Shown one piece after another: positions 4,649 through 35,452 of a DNA stretch of 64,000 nucleotides (position 1 is its first letter; the number at the start of each line of letters is the position of its first letter). The DNA lies in the NCBI GenBank assembly GCA_025361565.1, contig JANYKN010000018.1, forward strand, positions 124,001-188,000, in the 5' to 3' direction. The notes beneath the pieces are model-generated. The model was not told the origin of the DNA, made no database searches, and saw only the letters and a program-made list of their open reading frames with translations. This DNA comes from Bacteroidota bacterium (GTDB taxonomy: Bacteria > Bacteroidota > Bacteroidia > Bacteroidales > NBLH01). A program made the translations under genes and the position numbers.

Positions 4649-4683
4649 CTACAGAAATAAAATAGAATTGAGCTGTAATTTTG
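4649..4683 (+). promoter_or_regulatory. array promoter, copy 1: conserved box plus -7 element
   Basis: Box CTACAGAAATAAAATAGAA at 4649-4667 followed by the Bacteroidota -7 element TAATTTTG at 4676-4683, 27 nt from box start to -7 start. The same box at the same spacing precedes all four paralogues. No TTTG/TTG is at the usual -33 position, which the box covers, so an activator site is plausible. Confidence 0.65.
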
Positions 4684-4730
4684 AATCATAAAACAACAAA
4701 CACTTTATTATTTAATTTAAAATTTTAATT

Positions 4731-5093
4731 ATGAAAACAATTATTGGAAATGTAAAAAAGTTTGCCGTATTATTAACTTTGGTATTGGGATTAAGCACAA
4801 TTGTTAGTGCAGGACCCAAAACACCTATTAAAGTTACTGACCTTCAAAAAAGTATAACAGATCAGATAGCCAAAGATTATGCAGGTTATACTATTAAAAA
4901 TGCTTATAAAATGGACAAAAACAAAGTAGTTACATACGATGTTAATGTTGTAAAAGGAACACAGACTCTTTGTCTTGCTTTTGATCAAAGTGGAAAGTTT
5001 TTAAGAGTTATTGAACCAAAGAGCAAATCAAATACAAGTAACAAAACTACCGCTATGACTGAAAAAAATCATTCTCAGAAGTCGCAAAAATAA
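4731..5093 (+). CDS. PepSY-like secreted small protein, paralogue 1 of 4
   Basis: 120-aa protein with a signal peptide at residues ~1-27 (KKFAVLLTLVLGLSTIVSAG) and one compact domain: LQKSITDQIAKDYAGYTIKNAY, then a beta-rich stretch with YDVNVVKGTQTLCLAFDQSGKFLRVIEPK. This alternating helix-strand pattern resembles PepSY-like (BLIP-like) domains common in Bacteroidota; that is inferred by eye. The charged Lys/Thr-rich tail looks disordered. It is the first of four tandem paralogues preceding a two-component system, suggesting envelope sensing or modulation. Exact function unknown. Confidence 0.75.
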   Translation: MKTIIGNVKKFAVLLTLVLGLSTIVSAGPKTPIKVTDLQKSITDQIAKDYAGYTIKNAYKMDKNKVVTYDVNVVKGTQTLCLAFDQSGKFLRVIEPKSKSNTSNKTTAMTEKNHSQKSQK

Positions 5094-5116
5094 CTATACA
5101 AACACTATATTACCAG

Positions 5117-5143
5117 AGACCGGATTTTCCGGTCTTTTTTTTT
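5117..5143 (+). terminator. intrinsic terminator after paralogue 1
   Basis: Stem AGACCGG (5117-5123) / CCGGTCT (5129-5135) with a short ATTTT loop and a run of nine T. It separates paralogue 1 from paralogue 2, so each has its own transcription unit. Confidence 0.85.
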
Positions 5144-5166
5144 GTTTAGAAAATATCAAAGATCAA

Positions 5167-5201
5167 CTACAGAAATAAAATAGAAGTGGTTAATAATTTT
5201 A
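5167..5201 (+). promoter_or_regulatory. array promoter, copy 2, with altered -7 element
   Basis: The 19-bp box CTACAGAAATAAAATAGAA is perfectly kept at 5167-5185. At the same 27-nt offset the -7 element reads TAATTTTA (5194-5201) rather than TAATTTTG, and the sequence between the two is unlike the other copies. The box has been preserved while the core promoter has drifted. Confidence 0.5.
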
Positions 5202-5247
5202 GTTCAATAGATAGTAACACAAAATGTTTTATTTAAATTCTAAAATC

Positions 5248-5574
5248 ATGAAAACGATGATGGTAAATGCAAAAAAGGTTTCCGTACTTAAAAAAAGCAT
5301 AATTGAAGAAATAGCAAGAGATTATGTTGGATACACTATTAAAAGCGCATATAAGGCAGACCTTAACAAGGCGATTACTTATGATGTTAATTTAGTAAAA
5401 GGAACGCAAACTGTTTTTCTTTCATATGACAAGAATGGCGTGTTTATTGAGTTTATTGAACCTCAAAAAAAACACATCATCAAATTAATGCCCATTGCAA
5501 AGATACCGCAATACCGGGAAAAATTAATTCCAAAAAGTTTTAAAAAGAATTTCACAAATTCTTCATTCAAATAA
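5248..5574 (+). CDS. PepSY-like paralogue 2 of 4, signal peptide deleted
   Basis: Related to its neighbours from KKSIIEEIARDYVGYTIKSAYKADLNKAITYDVNLVKGTQTV to the FIEFIEP strand. The hydrophobic core of the signal peptide is missing: MKTMMVNAKKVSVL runs directly into KKSI, consistent with an in-frame deletion of about 25 codons. The C-terminal tail is also different (basic, NFTNSSFK end). I chose the ATG at 5248 because it aligns with the MKT start of the other copies; the ATG at 5224 adds eight residues. Without an export signal it is probably cytoplasmic or a decaying copy. Confidence 0.6.
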   Translation: MKTMMVNAKKVSVLKKSIIEEIARDYVGYTIKSAYKADLNKAITYDVNLVKGTQTVFLSYDKNGVFIEFIEPQKKHIIKLMPIAKIPQYREKLIPKSFKKNFTNSSFK

Positions 5575-5579
5575 TCCAT

Positions 5580-5614
5580 CTACAGAAATAAAATAGAATT
5601 GAGCTGTAATTTTG
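5580..5614 (+). promoter_or_regulatory. array promoter, copy 3
   Basis: CTACAGAAATAAAATAGAA at 5580-5598 and TAATTTTG at 5607-5614, offset 27 nt. The segment between them and about 12 bases after are identical to copy 1. Confidence 0.65.
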
Positions 5615-5660
5615 AATCATAAAATAACAAATACTTAATATTTAATTAAATTAAAAAACA

Positions 5661-6023
5661 ATGAAAACAACAATTGAAAATGTAAAAAAGTTTGCCCTGA
5701 TGTTAACTTTATTATTCGGAATAAGTGCATTGGTTAGTGCGCAATCAAAAACTCCTATTAAAATTGCCGATCTTCAAAAAAGTATAACTGACCATATTGC
5801 TAAGGATTATGCAGGTTATACAATCAAAGATGCCTTTAAAAAGGAAAACAACAAAGTGACGACCTTTGATGTTGATATTGCAAAAGGAAACCAGACCGTT
5901 TGTCTTGCTTTTGACCAGAGTGGCAAGTTTTTAAAGGTTATAGAGCCTAAAAGTAATTCAAATACCAACAACAAAACTACAGCTATGACTGAAAAAGATC
6001 ACACTCAGAAGCCACAAAAATAA
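5661..6023 (+). CDS. PepSY-like secreted small protein, paralogue 3 of 4
   Basis: 120 aa, closest to paralogue 1 in length and tail (both end in AMTEK-N/D-H-x-QK-x-QK). Signal peptide at residues ~1-27 ending SALVSAQ; mature part KTPIKIADLQKSITDHIAKDYAGYTIKDAF followed by strands TFDVDIAKGNQTVCLAF and KFLKVIEPK. The single cysteine in the TVCLAF strand is shared with paralogue 1 and, as MVCLSF, paralogue 4. Periplasmic or secreted; function unknown. It has its own copy of the conserved promoter box. Confidence 0.75.
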   Translation: MKTTIENVKKFALMLTLLFGISALVSAQSKTPIKIADLQKSITDHIAKDYAGYTIKDAFKKENNKVTTFDVDIAKGNQTVCLAFDQSGKFLKVIEPKSNSNTNNKTTAMTEKDHTQKPQK

Positions 6024-6052
6024 TTTTACAATTAACACATTTTAATAATTAG

Positions 6053-6087
6053 CTACAGAAATAAAATAGAATTGAGCTATAATTTTG
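6053..6087 (+). promoter_or_regulatory. array promoter, copy 4
   Basis: CTACAGAAATAAAATAGAA at 6053-6071 and TAATTTTG at 6080-6087, again 27 nt apart. Confidence 0.65.
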
Positions 6088-6129
6088 CTTCAAATAATAA
6101 CAAACACTTAATATTTAAATTTAAAAACT

Positions 6130-6498
6130 ATGAAAACAACTATTAAAAATGTAACAAAGTTTGCTTTAATGTTAACCTTAGTATTTGGAATGAGCGCTTT
6201 AGTTAGTGCACAATCAAAAACTCCAGTCAAAGTTGCCGATCTTCAAAAAAGTATAACCGATTACATAGCCAAAGATTATGCTGGTTATACTGTTAAAGAT
6301 GCCTATAAAGTAGACAAAAACAAAGTAATTACTTTTGGTGTAAATGTTGAAAAAGAGGGGAAAATGGTATGTTTGTCATTTGACAACAGTGGGAAATTTT
6401 TAAAGGTTATCGAACCTAAAACAAAAACAAGTTCTACAACAAAAACAACCACTAACACAAAAACTTCCACTGGGAATAACAAAAAAACAACGAAATAA
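6130..6498 (+). CDS. PepSY-like secreted small protein, paralogue 4 of 4
   Basis: 122 aa. Signal peptide at residues ~1-28 (ALMLTLVFGMSALVSAQ), the shared domain KTPVKVADLQKSITDYIAKDYAGYTVKDAYKVDKNKVITF, and a long Thr/Lys-only tail (KTKTSSTTKTTTNTKTST) that is probably disordered. It is the last copy before the response regulator and is closed by its own terminator. The family is likely envelope-located; partner and ligand are unknown. Confidence 0.75.
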   Translation: MKTTIKNVTKFALMLTLVFGMSALVSAQSKTPVKVADLQKSITDYIAKDYAGYTVKDAYKVDKNKVITFGVNVEKEGKMVCLSFDNSGKFLKVIEPKTKTSSTTKTTTNTKTSTGNNKKTTK

Positions 6499-6519
6499 AG
6501 TTGTTAATGTTAACATGCC

Positions 6520-6548
6520 AAAGGCCAGGGTAATACCTGGCCTTTTTT
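6520..6548 (+). terminator. intrinsic terminator closing the paralogue array
   Basis: 10-bp stem AAAGGCCAGG (6520-6529) / CCTGGCCTTT (6536-6545), 6-nt loop, then a T run. It separates the array from the two-component genes. Confidence 0.88.
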
Positions 6549-6590
6549 ATTTAAACACAATTTTAAGATATCGTCAATCATTTAATTTCG

Positions 6591-6658
6591 TTACTTTGTA
6601 GTTGCATTTAGAAAACTTCTTTGAAAAAAGGAAATGATTCCATTATTTCAAAATGGAA
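6591..6658 (+). promoter_or_regulatory. leader of the two-component operon with an inverted repeat
   Basis: A weak -7-like element TTACTTTG (6591-6598, one mismatch to TAnnTTTG) is followed by the inverted repeat TTCCATT (6638-6644) / AATGGAA (6652-6658), 27 nt before the response regulator start. It could be an operator for autoregulation or a leader hairpin. The array box is not found here. Confidence 0.35.
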
Positions 6659-6684
6659 ATATTAATAATTGAAATAAATCTGTC

Positions 6685-7365
6685 ATGAAAATCTTAATTG
6701 TCGAAGACGAAAAAGAGCTCGCATCATCAATAACATCCTATCTGAGTCAGGAAAAATATATATGTGAATGCGTTAATAATTTTGCATTTGCATCTGAAAA
6801 AATAGACTTATATAATTATGATTGTCTGATAGTTGATATAATACTTCCTGATGGAAACGGACTCGATATTATTAAAAATTTAAAAAAAACGAAAGCTGAT
6901 ACTGGAATTATTATCATATCGGCCAGAAATTCATTAAGTGATAAAATTACCGGTTTGGATATTGGAGCCGATGATTACCTGACAAAACCTTTCCATTTAT
7001 CAGAATTAAATTCAAGGTTAAAATCCATTATACGCCGAAGAAGTTTTGCCGGCAACAATGAGATTAATTTTGAAAAAATAAAAATTTTACCTGATTTTAA
7101 CCAGGTTTTCGTTGATAACACCGAACTAGTTCTTACTAAAAAAGAATATGATTTAATCATGTACCTGATAATTAACAAGAACAGGGTGGTTACAAAGGAA
7201 TCAATTGCAGAACATCTTTGGGGAGATAACATAGACATGGTTGATTCCTATGATTTTTTATATAACCACATAAAAAATTTGAGAAAAAAAATAATCGATG
7301 CAGGAGGTGATAATTACATCGAAACTGTTTATAAAATGGGATATCGTTTAAGCAATAACAATTGA
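6685..7365 (+). CDS. OmpR/PhoB-family response regulator
   Basis: 226 aa. N-terminal receiver domain (1-~118): acidic pair in ILIVEDE, phospho-acceptor D51 in LIVDIILPDG, conserved lysine K101 in DDYLTKPF. C-terminal winged-helix DNA-binding domain (~128-226) with LTKKEYDLIMYLIINKNRVVTKE and a YIETVYKMGYRL wing. Its stop is one base from the start of the histidine kinase, so they are co-transcribed. Position beside four paralogues with an identical upstream box makes this regulator the first candidate to bind that box; this is inference. Confidence 0.93.
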   Translation: MKILIVEDEKELASSITSYLSQEKYICECVNNFAFASEKIDLYNYDCLIVDIILPDGNGLDIIKNLKKTKADTGIIIISARNSLSDKITGLDIGADDYLTKPFHLSELNSRLKSIIRRRSFAGNNEINFEKIKILPDFNQVFVDNTELVLTKKEYDLIMYLIINKNRVVTKESIAEHLWGDNIDMVDSYDFLYNHIKNLRKKIIDAGGDNYIETVYKMGYRLSNNN

Positions 7366-7366
7366 A

Positions 7367-8635
7367 ATGAAACTAATTACAAAAACATCATACTATTACA
7401 TTGGCTTTTCAATCATTGGATTTATAATTGGTGGTATTATTTTTTATCATATTATTTTTTCCATTATCAACAGTAGGGCTAATGATGATTTAAAAACTGA
7501 AAAGGAACTAATCGAGGAGCAAATCATCCATTCCGACAGTATTCCTGATTTTACCCCATATTTTGGTCATCAGATTGTCGTCACTTTTTTCGATCATCAT
7601 GTTATTCCAACATATGCATTAAACGATACAATAATGACTGATACTGTATCTAACGAAGAAATTCCATACCGGTATCTGATTTCAGCAAATAATAAAAAAC
7701 ATAAATCGTATTCAATAGAAATATTTAAACCTTTGATTAATACAAATCAACTGTTTGAAGATATCTTTTTTGTGATGTTTATTATGTTTTTGTTTCTATT
7801 ACTGTCGTTAATCCTAATAAATTATCTTATCTCACGCAAAACTTGGTCGACATTTTATAATACGTTAAAAAAAATAAAAGAGTATGATATAAATAATGGA
7901 GAAGGTTTGATTTTAAACCAGAGCAATATTTCGGAATTTATGCAGCTGAACGAGGTACTTGTTCAAATGTCGAATAAGATTTTTCACAATTATATAAACC
8001 TTAAAGAATTTACAGAAAATGCATCGCATGAAATTCAAACGCCTTTGGCCATAATAAAGTCGAAACTTGAATTATTGATTCAAAGCCTGCCATTAAACAA
8101 CGAGCAAATGACAATTGTACAATCCATGTATGAAGCGGTTACCAGGCTTTCGAAGCTAAATGCGAACCTGGTACTTTTGTCTAAAATTGAAAACAGCCAA
8201 TTTCACGATACAGCGAATGTTAACCTGAATCAAATTATCGAATCAGTTTTAGCAAATCTTGAAGATATTATTGCTCAAAAAGAATTAAAAGTGAGTAAAA
8301 ACATTCCTGCAAATCCTGTTCTAATACAAATGAACCCAACCCTGGCCGAAGTTCTCATCATTAATTTGATTTCAAATGCAGTAAAACATAACATAAAAAA
8401 TGGAAGTATCGATATTACGTTGAATGACAAAATGCTTTCCATATCTAATTCCGGTCTTCATATGGAAACTGACCCAAAATCTATGTTTGATCGATTTAAA
8501 AAGGGTAAAACTACTTCGGAGTCACTTGGCCTTGGGCTTTCAATTGTACAAAAAATAGTAAACCTTTACAAAATCTCAATTTCGTATGTGTATGAATCCG
8601 AAACACATACACTGACTTTGATGTTTCTAAAATAG
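7367..8635 (+). CDS. sensor histidine kinase
   Basis: 422 aa. TM1 ~11-36, a short periplasmic sensor region (~40-130), TM2 ~132-155, then a dimerisation/phosphoacceptor domain with H221 in TENASHEIQTPLAI and a HATPase domain ~290-420 (N box NLISNAVKHN, G box SLGLGLSIVQKIV). No clear HAMP domain joins TM2 to the kinase core. The first glycine box is degenerate (LSISNSG rather than DxGxG). The architecture is like the RprX-type kinases of Bacteroidota. The small sensor domain could be addressed by the PepSY-like proteins encoded just upstream; this is untested inference. Confidence 0.9.
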   Translation: MKLITKTSYYYIGFSIIGFIIGGIIFYHIIFSIINSRANDDLKTEKELIEEQIIHSDSIPDFTPYFGHQIVVTFFDHHVIPTYALNDTIMTDTVSNEEIPYRYLISANNKKHKSYSIEIFKPLINTNQLFEDIFFVMFIMFLFLLLSLILINYLISRKTWSTFYNTLKKIKEYDINNGEGLILNQSNISEFMQLNEVLVQMSNKIFHNYINLKEFTENASHEIQTPLAIIKSKLELLIQSLPLNNEQMTIVQSMYEAVTRLSKLNANLVLLSKIENSQFHDTANVNLNQIIESVLANLEDIIAQKELKVSKNIPANPVLIQMNPTLAEVLIINLISNAVKHNIKNGSIDITLNDKMLSISNSGLHMETDPKSMFDRFKKGKTTSESLGLGLSIVQKIVNLYKISISYVYESETHTLTLMFLK

Positions 8636-32878: not shown

Positions 32879-33811
32879 TTAATCACTTATTTCCCTAATA
32901 TATTCAATAATTTTGCTTGCGCCTTTTTCGTAAAACGACAAAGCCAATTTTTTTGCAATTTGCTCTGCATCACTTCTTTTTCCTGTATAAGTGTCTTGAA
33001 TTACCCCAGTACCATCGGGCATGGAAATAAATCCGCAAATACTAAATTCAGTAAGGGTGCTTTTGGTATAACAACCAACAGGAACCTGACAACCACCTTG
33101 CAATACATTTAGAAAAATACGCTCCGCCCTTGCGGTTGTATTGGTGTCTTCGTCGTTAATCTGATCAACCAACGATTGTATAAAACCATCGTTTTCGCGG
33201 GTTTCAATGGCAATAATTCCCTGGCTTACTGCGGGAATAATGGTTTCTTCGTCAATTACTTCTGAAATATATTTATCAAACCCAAGTCTTTGCAAACCAG
33301 CCGCTGCCATAATCATTGCAGTACAATAACCATCTTCCATTTTGGCAAGGCGTGTATTCACATTTCCTCTAATGTCCACAATTTTAAAATTGGGATTTAA
33401 CTTTAGCAATTGGGCTTTTCTACGTAAACTTGAAGTTGCAATAATATCATTGGCATCGAGGTCTGCTACTTTTTTACCCGAAATGCTAACCAATGCATCC
33501 CTGAATTCAGCTCTTTTTAAAACTCCGCCAAGAATTAAACCTTCTGGCAAAACAGTGGGTAAATCTTTTAAACTGTGAACGGCCAAATCAACAATACCGT
33601 CGGTTAAAGCAGTTTCTATTTCTTTGGTAAACAATCCTTTGTCACCAATTTTCGATAAAGCAACATCGAGAATTTTATCACCTTTCGTTTTTATAATTTC
33701 AATTTCGAATTGCAGGTCAGGAAACTTGACTTCCAATTCGCTTTTAACCTTATTGGCTTGATACAATGCCAATTGACTTCCTCGTGTTCCTATCCTGATT
33801 ATTTTGCTCAT
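32879..33811 (-). CDS. hemC: hydroxymethylbilane synthase (porphobilinogen deaminase)
   Basis: 310 aa; polymerises four porphobilinogens on a dipyrromethane cofactor. IRIGTRGSQLALYQANKVK is the N-terminal signature, HSLKDLPTVLP carries the catalytic aspartate region, and the cofactor cysteine is in LNVLQGGCQVPVGCYT. TSSLRRKAQL and VDIRGNVNTRLAKM provide substrate-binding arginines. It starts 97 bp after hemA. Confidence 0.96.
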   Translation of the reverse strand: MSKIIRIGTRGSQLALYQANKVKSELEVKFPDLQFEIEIIKTKGDKILDVALSKIGDKGLFTKEIETALTDGIVDLAVHSLKDLPTVLPEGLILGGVLKRAEFRDALVSISGKKVADLDANDIIATSSLRRKAQLLKLNPNFKIVDIRGNVNTRLAKMEDGYCTAMIMAAAGLQRLGFDKYISEVIDEETIIPAVSQGIIAIETRENDGFIQSLVDQINDEDTNTTARAERIFLNVLQGGCQVPVGCYTKSTLTEFSICGFISMPDGTGVIQDTYTGKRSDAEQIAKKLALSFYEKGASKIIEYIREISD

Positions 33812-33908: not shown

Positions 33909-35162
33909 TTAAAGTTCAAAAAGTTCATTAATGGCTTCGATGCTGTGTTTATTCTCACCATTTTTTACCAGACCCCTGAGATTTCGGATGAAAAGGCGGG
34001 CATATTTATCTGTAAGATGTTTTCCGTATTCTTCAATTGCTTTTTGATCGCTGATGTTGTTCACTTTTACAAAACCATCCAATTCGGTTTGGTTGATTTG
34101 GTGAAAATTGGTTTTTATTTTTTCAAAAACAGGTGACAGGCCCCGAACAACAAGCCAATCCATAAAATCAACATTTACCTCATCAATAATTTTTATTGCA
34201 TCGTCTACGGCTTGGGTTCTTCTATGTGTTGTACTATTTACAATTTCGGTTAAATCATCAACTGCAAAAAGATTCACTCCCTGCATCCCCGAAATGGAAG
34301 GATCAATATTACGAGGAACTGAAAGGTCAATAAACAGTTGCACTTGAACTGCATCGGCTAATTCTCTTGTTCTTTTCATCATTTCTTTGGTGAGAAGATA
34401 AGATTGAGAATCGGTTGCAACAATTACGATATCGCTAACTGACAAGTACTTTTCAATTTCTTGAAGACCAATTGCTATTCCATTGTATTTTTGAGCAACA
34501 ATTTCGGCTTTTTCAACGGTACGGTTGGCAACATATAAAGTTTTGATTTCGCGTTTTCCTAAACTGGTAAGAACCAACTGACCTGTTTGGCCTGCGCCAA
34601 TCATCATAACTGTACTTTCGGAAAGATTTGGATAATATTTTTGACACAAATCAACAGCTGCAGAGCTTACAGAAGCGGAACCTTCGTTAATTGAAGTTTC
34701 TGATCTTACTTTTTTACCTGCTTCAAATGCTTTGGTAAACAATCTTGACAATACAGTATCGGCACAATTATACTCCTGCGCGGTGCAAAATGCATTTTTA
34801 ACTTGCCCAATAATCTGATCTTCGCCAATTACCAAGGAATCAATTCCTGAAGTAACTTTGAATAAATGCTCAGAAGCATCTTTGCCAGTTTTAAAATAGA
34901 AACTGGATTTATGAGAATCGGAATAATTCTTAAATGTGGTTAACGCACTAAGTATTAATCCATAGGCATCCTGATCATTCCGTTTGCGACAATGGAAATA
35001 AATTTCGGTGCGGTTACATGTTGATAAAATAACCAAACCCTTATGGTCGGGATTATGTTGAAGTATTTTAGAAAATTTACCAATATCCTCTGATGAAAAA
35101 GCATATTGCTCACGAATGCTTATGTCTGCTGACTTAAAACTAATTCCGACTAATCCTATCAT
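33909..35162 (-). CDS. hemA: glutamyl-tRNA reductase
   Basis: 417 aa; NADPH-dependent reduction of glutamyl-tRNA to glutamate-1-semialdehyde, the first committed step. Catalytic cysteine in VILSTCNRTEIYF, the GEDQIIGQVKNAF motif, and NADPH site VMMIGAGQTGQLVLTSL. The frame opens earlier at a TTG (35189), but that codon overlaps a -7 promoter box, so the ATG at 35162 (MIGLVGISFKSADISIREQYAF) is preferred. First gene of the cluster and the usual point of heme feedback control; no regulatory site beyond the promoter is evident. Confidence 0.95.
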   Translation of the reverse strand: MIGLVGISFKSADISIREQYAFSSEDIGKFSKILQHNPDHKGLVILSTCNRTEIYFHCRKRNDQDAYGLILSALTTFKNYSDSHKSSFYFKTGKDASEHLFKVTSGIDSLVIGEDQIIGQVKNAFCTAQEYNCADTVLSRLFTKAFEAGKKVRSETSINEGSASVSSAAVDLCQKYYPNLSESTVMMIGAGQTGQLVLTSLGKREIKTLYVANRTVEKAEIVAQKYNGIAIGLQEIEKYLSVSDIVIVATDSQSYLLTKEMMKRTRELADAVQVQLFIDLSVPRNIDPSISGMQGVNLFAVDDLTEIVNSTTHRRTQAVDDAIKIIDEVNVDFMDWLVVRGLSPVFEKIKTNFHQINQTELDGFVKVNNISDQKAIEEYGKHLTDKYARLFIRNLRGLVKNGENKHSIEAINELFEL

Positions 35163-35186: not shown

Positions 35187-35194
35187 CAAACTTA
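35187..35194 (-). promoter_or_regulatory. -7 element of the heme cluster promoter
   Basis: TAAGTTTG on the minus strand (TAnnTTTG), 25 nt before the hemA ATG at 35162. No -33 match at standard spacing. Confidence 0.5.
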
Positions 35195-35452
35195 GAATTG
35201 AATTCTGAATTAAATTTGAATTTTTAAGAAAAAGGGCATAATCTGATTTAATTCATGTTTTTGGCAGTTTTTTTTGTAGGAAGCCCGCTTTAGATCATAA
35301 AAATTCTAATTGAGGATTAATGCCAAAATGATATTAATTTCATTCCATCCAATTATTATTTGTATACCAAAATCATGCATCTGAAATCCATTAAAATGAC
35401 AAATTTTATCTACATTAGCTAAATTATTTATTCGAATTTCAAAAACTCTAAA

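Follow-up and report, generated by a model that had tools for sequence, protein, structure and literature searches.

A 19-bp direct-repeat operator before four PepSY-like genes, probably read by the adjacent HaeSR-like two-component system

Introduction

In the window (the whole 64,000-nucleotide stretch analysed here), four tandem PepSY-like genes each stand behind an identical 19-bp box, CTACAGAAATAAAATAGAA. The box is best explained as the operator of the adjacent HaeR-like regulator, which would activate weak promoters while its partner kinase senses an envelope signal; we put the probability of this whole explanation at roughly four in five. The cluster reads as follows.

4649..4667, + strand, operator box 1, with -7 element TAATTTTG at 4676-4683
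4731..5093, + strand, PepSY-like copy 1, 120 aa, putative signal peptide
5115..5137, + strand, terminator-like hairpin 3' of copy 1, a consensus match only
5167..5185, + strand, operator box 2, with -7 element TAATTTTA at 5194-5201
5248..5574, + strand, PepSY-like copy 2, signal-peptide region (24 aa) lost, different and basic C-terminal tail
5580..5598, + strand, operator box 3, with -7 element TAATTTTG at 5607-5614
5661..6023, + strand, PepSY-like copy 3, 120 aa, putative signal peptide
6053..6071, + strand, operator box 4, with -7 element TAATTTTG at 6080-6087
6130..6498, + strand, PepSY-like copy 4, 122 aa, modelled fold matching DUF2874/PepSY-like crystal structures
6520..6545, + strand, terminator-like hairpin between the array and the regulator gene, a consensus match only
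6685..7365, + strand, OmpR-type response regulator, 226 aa, Trans_reg_C domain, recognition helix 187-202 with K197, K217 in the wing
7367..8635, + strand, histidine kinase, PorY family of NCBIfam, 422 aa, H221 in HEIQT

Results

The box is a direct repeat kept by selection

An earlier note, made from the sequence alone, had described four unchanged boxes at a constant 27 nt from the -7 position, occupying the place where a -33 element is expected. All of this was borne out: the four copies are exact, the box start lies 27 nt before the -7 element in every one, and no TTTG -33 element was found at the four box promoters. The -7 elements themselves are TAnnTTTG-type, that is, of the housekeeping kind. 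The box, which the note had taken as a single unit, is better described as an 11-bp direct repeat, CAGAAA-N5-TAGAAT; in full it reads CAGAAA-TAAAA-TAGAAT-N7-TAATTTTG, a variant of the family operator described below.

The box is identical at 19/19 positions in every pair of copies, whereas pairwise identity is 32-48% in the 25 nt upstream of it, falls as low as 25% in the spacer and is 40-59% at four-fold sites. Because flanks and four-fold sites have diverged while the box is invariant, it is purifying selection, and not recency, that holds the box. The same contrast rejects duplication without selection. A recent duplication or conversion of the gene-promoter unit, with no regulator involved, would fit tandem paralogs such as these, but it is hardly credible given this divergence and the presence of the same operator in unrelated promoters across the phylum. 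An alternative sigma factor that uses the box as its upstream promoter element is also very unlikely. Such an element would explain the fixed distance and the replaced -33 element, but not the 11-bp direct repeat, the retained housekeeping-type TAnnTTTG element or the covariation of one box base with the recognition helix of a response regulator (see below).

A genome-wide search, which the note had proposed, placed the box in the array only: across the 6.76-Mb genome it occurs four times exactly and never with one or two mismatches. The shuffle expectation for the box at up to three mismatches was 0.06, and the 14 genome matches at three mismatches are close to the number given by a reversed-pattern control (4+9). 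The idea that the exact box serves a wide regulon in the host genome was rejected, since the box is found only four times there.

Three of four PepSY-like products look secreted

Copies 1, 3 and 4 look like carriers of a signal peptide: each has an N-terminal hydrophobic stretch that ends in VSA. Copy 2, which probably starts at the ATG at 5248 and not at the mechanical open reading frame start at 5224, lacks the signal-peptide residues, so that the products of copies 1, 3 and 4 look secreted and that of copy 2 does not. As copy 2 has kept its operator and lost its signal peptide, its product should stay cytoplasmic, or else the gene is decaying. The hairpins after copies 1 and 4 make it probable that the array and the regulator operon are separate units and that copy 1 has a transcript to itself.

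Against the Pfam profile PF11396 (PepSY_like), copy 3 scored 13.8 bits, below the gathering cut-off of 28.3, and copies 1, 2 and 4 gave no match; in the local alignment, 5 of the 12 members matched with E<=0.1, the lowest value being 1.5e-5. Copy 4 was modelled with AlphaFold, with a core pLDDT of about 90 or more. The top Foldseek rows for this model were DUF2874/PepSY-like structures with probability 1.00, and VIA-align gave a Z score of 10.2 against 3u1w (rmsd 1.6 A over 68 residues). On this model, copy 4 has the PepSY-like, or BLIP-like, domain fold. The copies resemble DUF2874/PepSY_like proteins such as BDI_1975 and BT0923 in the fold modelled for copy 4 and in being small and, except for copy 2, probably exported, and differ from them in being single-domain, in their charged low-confidence tail and in a sequence that falls under the Pfam cut-off.

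The adjacent pair resembles HaeSR

The kinase exceeds the cut-off of the NCBIfam PorY family (430 bits against NF052314, cut-off 350) and has about 105 aa of periplasmic sequence between its two membrane spans. In that family assignment it resembles PorXY, the pair associated with the type IX secretion system. However, PorX is described as lacking binding to target promoters (PMC5706477), whereas the partner in the window is an OmpR-type DNA-binding regulator. We rejected identity with PorXY because this partner carries Trans_reg_C and PorX has no OmpR DNA-binding domain.

The closest described system, likened by description, is HaeSR (PG0719-PG0720) of Porphyromonas gingivalis, a hemin-responsive pair next to the lipoprotein PG0717 with four DUF2874 domains (PMC3764172, PMC5706477). 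The kinase HaeS binds hemin and has a sensor of 104 aa (PMC5706477), and HaeR binds its own promoter and that of hmuY (PMC3764172, PMC5706477). Kinase length (about 425 aa, compared with 422 aa here), about 105 aa of periplasmic sequence, the HExxT motif (HEIQT here), a DNA-binding regulator as partner and an adjoining DUF2874 (PepSY-like) gene are all shared. The putative targets may be alike as well: operators of the window system's family stand before regulator, PepSY-like, hemA and HmuY genes. The systems differ in that P. gingivalis has one four-domain lipoprotein and the window has four single-domain copies, each with an operator, upstream of the regulator. This gene neighbourhood is widespread: the regulator and PorY-family kinase adjoin PepSY-like genes in many Bacteroidales, and in many families of the order the gene behind a PorY-like kinase is PepSY-like.

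The operator recurs across relatives

In relatives, PepSY-like genes and many regulators are preceded by a family operator, CAGAWT-N5-CAGAAT-N7-TAnnTTTG. Pairs of CAGAWT near such loci lie 11 bp apart in 13 cases and at any other distance in at most two. An operator score of at least 16.5/20 was reached by 15 of 51 family regulator promoters and by 18 of the 34 promoters in front of the small gene that follows the kinase, each against a null of 0.0007-0.001 from shuffles. Columns left free by the search pattern show the same period, with T at -2 (80%) and T at +9 (75%). Scanning 295 genomes of the order for the exact pattern returned 16 sites, compared to 0 for the reversed pattern, and all 16 lie in promoters: of PepSY-like genes (7), hemA (4), regulators (3), HmuY (1) and a TonB-type receptor (1). 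In a contig-wide scan, 77 of 80 loci among the matches listed carry Bacteroidota titles. Pfam analysis of 82 downstream proteins among the matches listed, drawn from both the 295-genome scan and the contig-wide scan, gave PepSY_like (27), GlutR, i.e. hemA (10), OmpR-type regulators (8), Sulfatase (5), PAP2 (5) and HmuY (2). Matches in Woesearchaeota, Pelagibacteraceae and Gastranaerophilales contigs were taken as chance, being opposite a long open frame.

Several other observations were made in these scans. First, the operator lies upstream of sulfatase/LtaS-type genes at six loci (L187, L213, L219, L248, L251, L263) and of PAP2-type genes at four (L208, L217, L229, L240); these lipid-modifying targets were found in Sphingobacteriales, Flavobacteriales and Cytophagales and are reminiscent of PmrAB regulons. 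Second, two Hymenobacter genomes carry two operators back to back, about 100 bp apart (L207, 71-205; L240, 7105-7239), one facing a PepSY-like gene and the other a second gene.

Operators of the PhoB and PmrA type, which belong to OmpR-family regulators, consist of two half-sites 11 bp apart that replace the -35 element. The family operator shares their 11-bp half-site spacing just upstream of a core promoter, where it takes the place of the -33 element, and differs in its CAGAWT half-site, its Bacteroidota TAnnTTTG -7 element and its 7-nt spacer. The operator appears to be undescribed so far: the open-licence literature yielded no HaeR operator or consensus, though one may have been published elsewhere, and nothing on PorY together with PepSY.

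Covariation and co-occurrence point to the neighbouring regulator

In a scan blind to the first half-site base, residue 197 of the recognition helix covaried with that base: K paired with C in 35 of 36 cases and N with T in 10 of 10, with R mixed. A T faces a K-type regulator only once, in the second half-site of the window box itself, which counts against the explanation. N-type regulators occur in three genomes at two places in the tree and may be of single origin. Regulators near exact operators elsewhere all have K or R at residue 197, and no T-type operator (TTTAGAWT repeat) was found in 395 genomes of the phylum. The operator also co-occurs with the kinase, which is present in 10 of 11 genomes with an exact operator compared to 42 of the other 138 genomes (p=1e-4). 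A hemA operator scoring at least 17 is found in 10 of 16 kinase-bearing genomes compared to 1 of 12 that lack the kinase (p=0.0016, rank test on scores).

Comparative evidence thus supports the note's proposal of activator-dependent promoters under the adjacent two-component system: the linkage is conserved, the same operator precedes regulator and PepSY genes in other families, residue and base covary, and the hemA operator occurs mainly where the kinase is present. On these sequence comparisons, it is well supported that the neighbouring regulator drives the four promoters. As to autoregulation, no clear operator site was found before the gene of the window regulator, whereas 15 of 51 family regulator promoters carry one.

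A second system and a probable lateral origin

The window holds a further predicted target, the heme-synthesis gene hemA, with a hemC-like gene after it at 32879-33811.

35187..35220, - strand, operator-promoter TTCAAATTTAATTCAGAATTCAATTCTAAGTTTG before hemA, score 19/20
33909..35162, - strand, hemA, glutamyl-tRNA reductase, predicted regulon member

In one half-site, the hemA site is closer to the family consensus than the four boxes are. Elsewhere in the genome, a pair of tandem two-domain PepSY-like genes (C149:54392-55490; L150, L169), with a TAGAAT-N5-TAGAAT operator before the first, is a probable further regulon member by its sequence. With these two exceptions, operator sites of one or two mismatches outside the array were taken as chance, because they either fall within a gene or are followed by none that is related.

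Another kinase-regulator pair of the genome also exceeds the family cut-off (kinase at C53:174998-176260, L088), and its regulator has the same K-type recognition helix as the window's. This C53 system groups with those of the genus and is a vertical copy; no operator-like site was found in the promoter of its regulator. One search reported an in-frame TGA in the matched stretch of the kinase and another did not. In G004, G019 and G022, hemA lies immediately after the two-component system, the G004 system being the ortholog of C53. The hemA site may belong to the C53 system, which may also bind to the boxes. That it is the main reader of the boxes, or reads them together with the neighbour, which would then not be the sole activator, is suggested by its helix, its vertical descent and the position of its G004 ortholog beside hemA, but we consider this unlikely. 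Physical linkage favours the adjacent pair, and the variant box and K217 are common only to the window and a genome of another family, G074. There, the nearest match to the window box stands before both PepSY genes, with 1/19 mismatch at the first and the same spacing. The G074 regulator is the nearest to the window's (tree support 92/91) and does not group with that of C53; the wing residue K217 is shared by these two regulators and by no other of the 49.

A search of six relatives from the genus gave no homologue of the PepSY genes. Since these homologues are missing there and the window regulator clusters with those of another family, sequence comparison makes it likely that the module was gained laterally in this genome. 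At 29% G+C compared to 34%, the cluster at 4649-8635 ranks with the window's most A+T-rich parts, which fits lateral gain without showing it.

Discussion

The sequences show the repeat and its spacing, purifying selection on the box, an operator common to the family, the gene linkage and the covariation of residue and base; regulator binding, promoter activation, the signal and PepSY function are what we infer from this comparative picture. Two regulator molecules, 11 bp from each other, would sit head to tail on CAGAAA-N5-TAGAAT. Between the end of this repeat and the -7 element lie 7 nt, and the repeat would stand in for the -33 element, so that the phosphorylated regulator would activate promoters of little strength by themselves. 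Control of the regulator would lie with the PorY-family kinase, acting on a signal at the envelope for which heme or iron status is the most likely candidate. Copies 1, 3 and 4, the intact PepSY-like ones, would act in the periplasm after export, probably by binding a partner or a ligand, and may exert feedback on the system; DUF2874 proteins have been proposed as partner-binding inhibitors (PMC2954215). The dose or feedback control suggested by the note is a conjecture, and one of the four copies lacks a signal peptide.

Heme or iron status is the likely signal on the basis of neighbouring members of the operator family, not of the PepSY copies: because this family also marks hemA, HmuY and TonB genes, we read it as serving heme/iron homeostasis. 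The PAP2 and sulfatase genes that carry the operator in other orders make an envelope role a serious rival. The note's dedicated envelope-sensing circuit stands in part: the lipid-modification genes fit it, and the operators at hemA, HmuY and TonB genes go beyond it. A PmrAB-like sensing of envelope damage or cations, with hemA as an accessory target, is a credible but less likely alternative. Besides those sulfatase/LtaS-type and PAP2 genes, it would agree with the PmrA-type architecture and with one DUF2874 structure annotated as calcium-regulated. It accords less well with hemA at 10 and HmuY at 2 of the 82 downstream genes among the matches listed, with hemin binding by the related HaeS (PMC5706477), and with the 3.7- and 5-fold induction of the PepSY-like genes BT0922-BT0923 of B. 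thetaiotaomicron in low iron (PMC10434189).

On balance, we lean towards a wider reading in which an operator of the form ~TTCAGAWTTNCTTCAGAATT-N7-TAnnTTTG would mark a phylum-wide regulon, bringing PepSY-like, heme synthesis and uptake, and lipid-modification genes under one kinase-regulator family with a residue-197 code and, in this genome, a laterally gained module with a four-fold array. If true, one residue would specify one base, K with C and N with T, and a probably laterally gained module would have grown its PepSY effectors into a four-fold operator-gene array. The residue-base covariation offers a direct test of regulator-site pairing, and the operator allows prediction of the HaeR-like regulon in sequenced Bacteroidota genomes. 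Many crystal structures exist of DUF2874/PepSY-like proteins, which are common in gut and oral Bacteroidota and have no established role; the link by operator to a HaeSR-like system, hemA and HmuY would give them a testable function.
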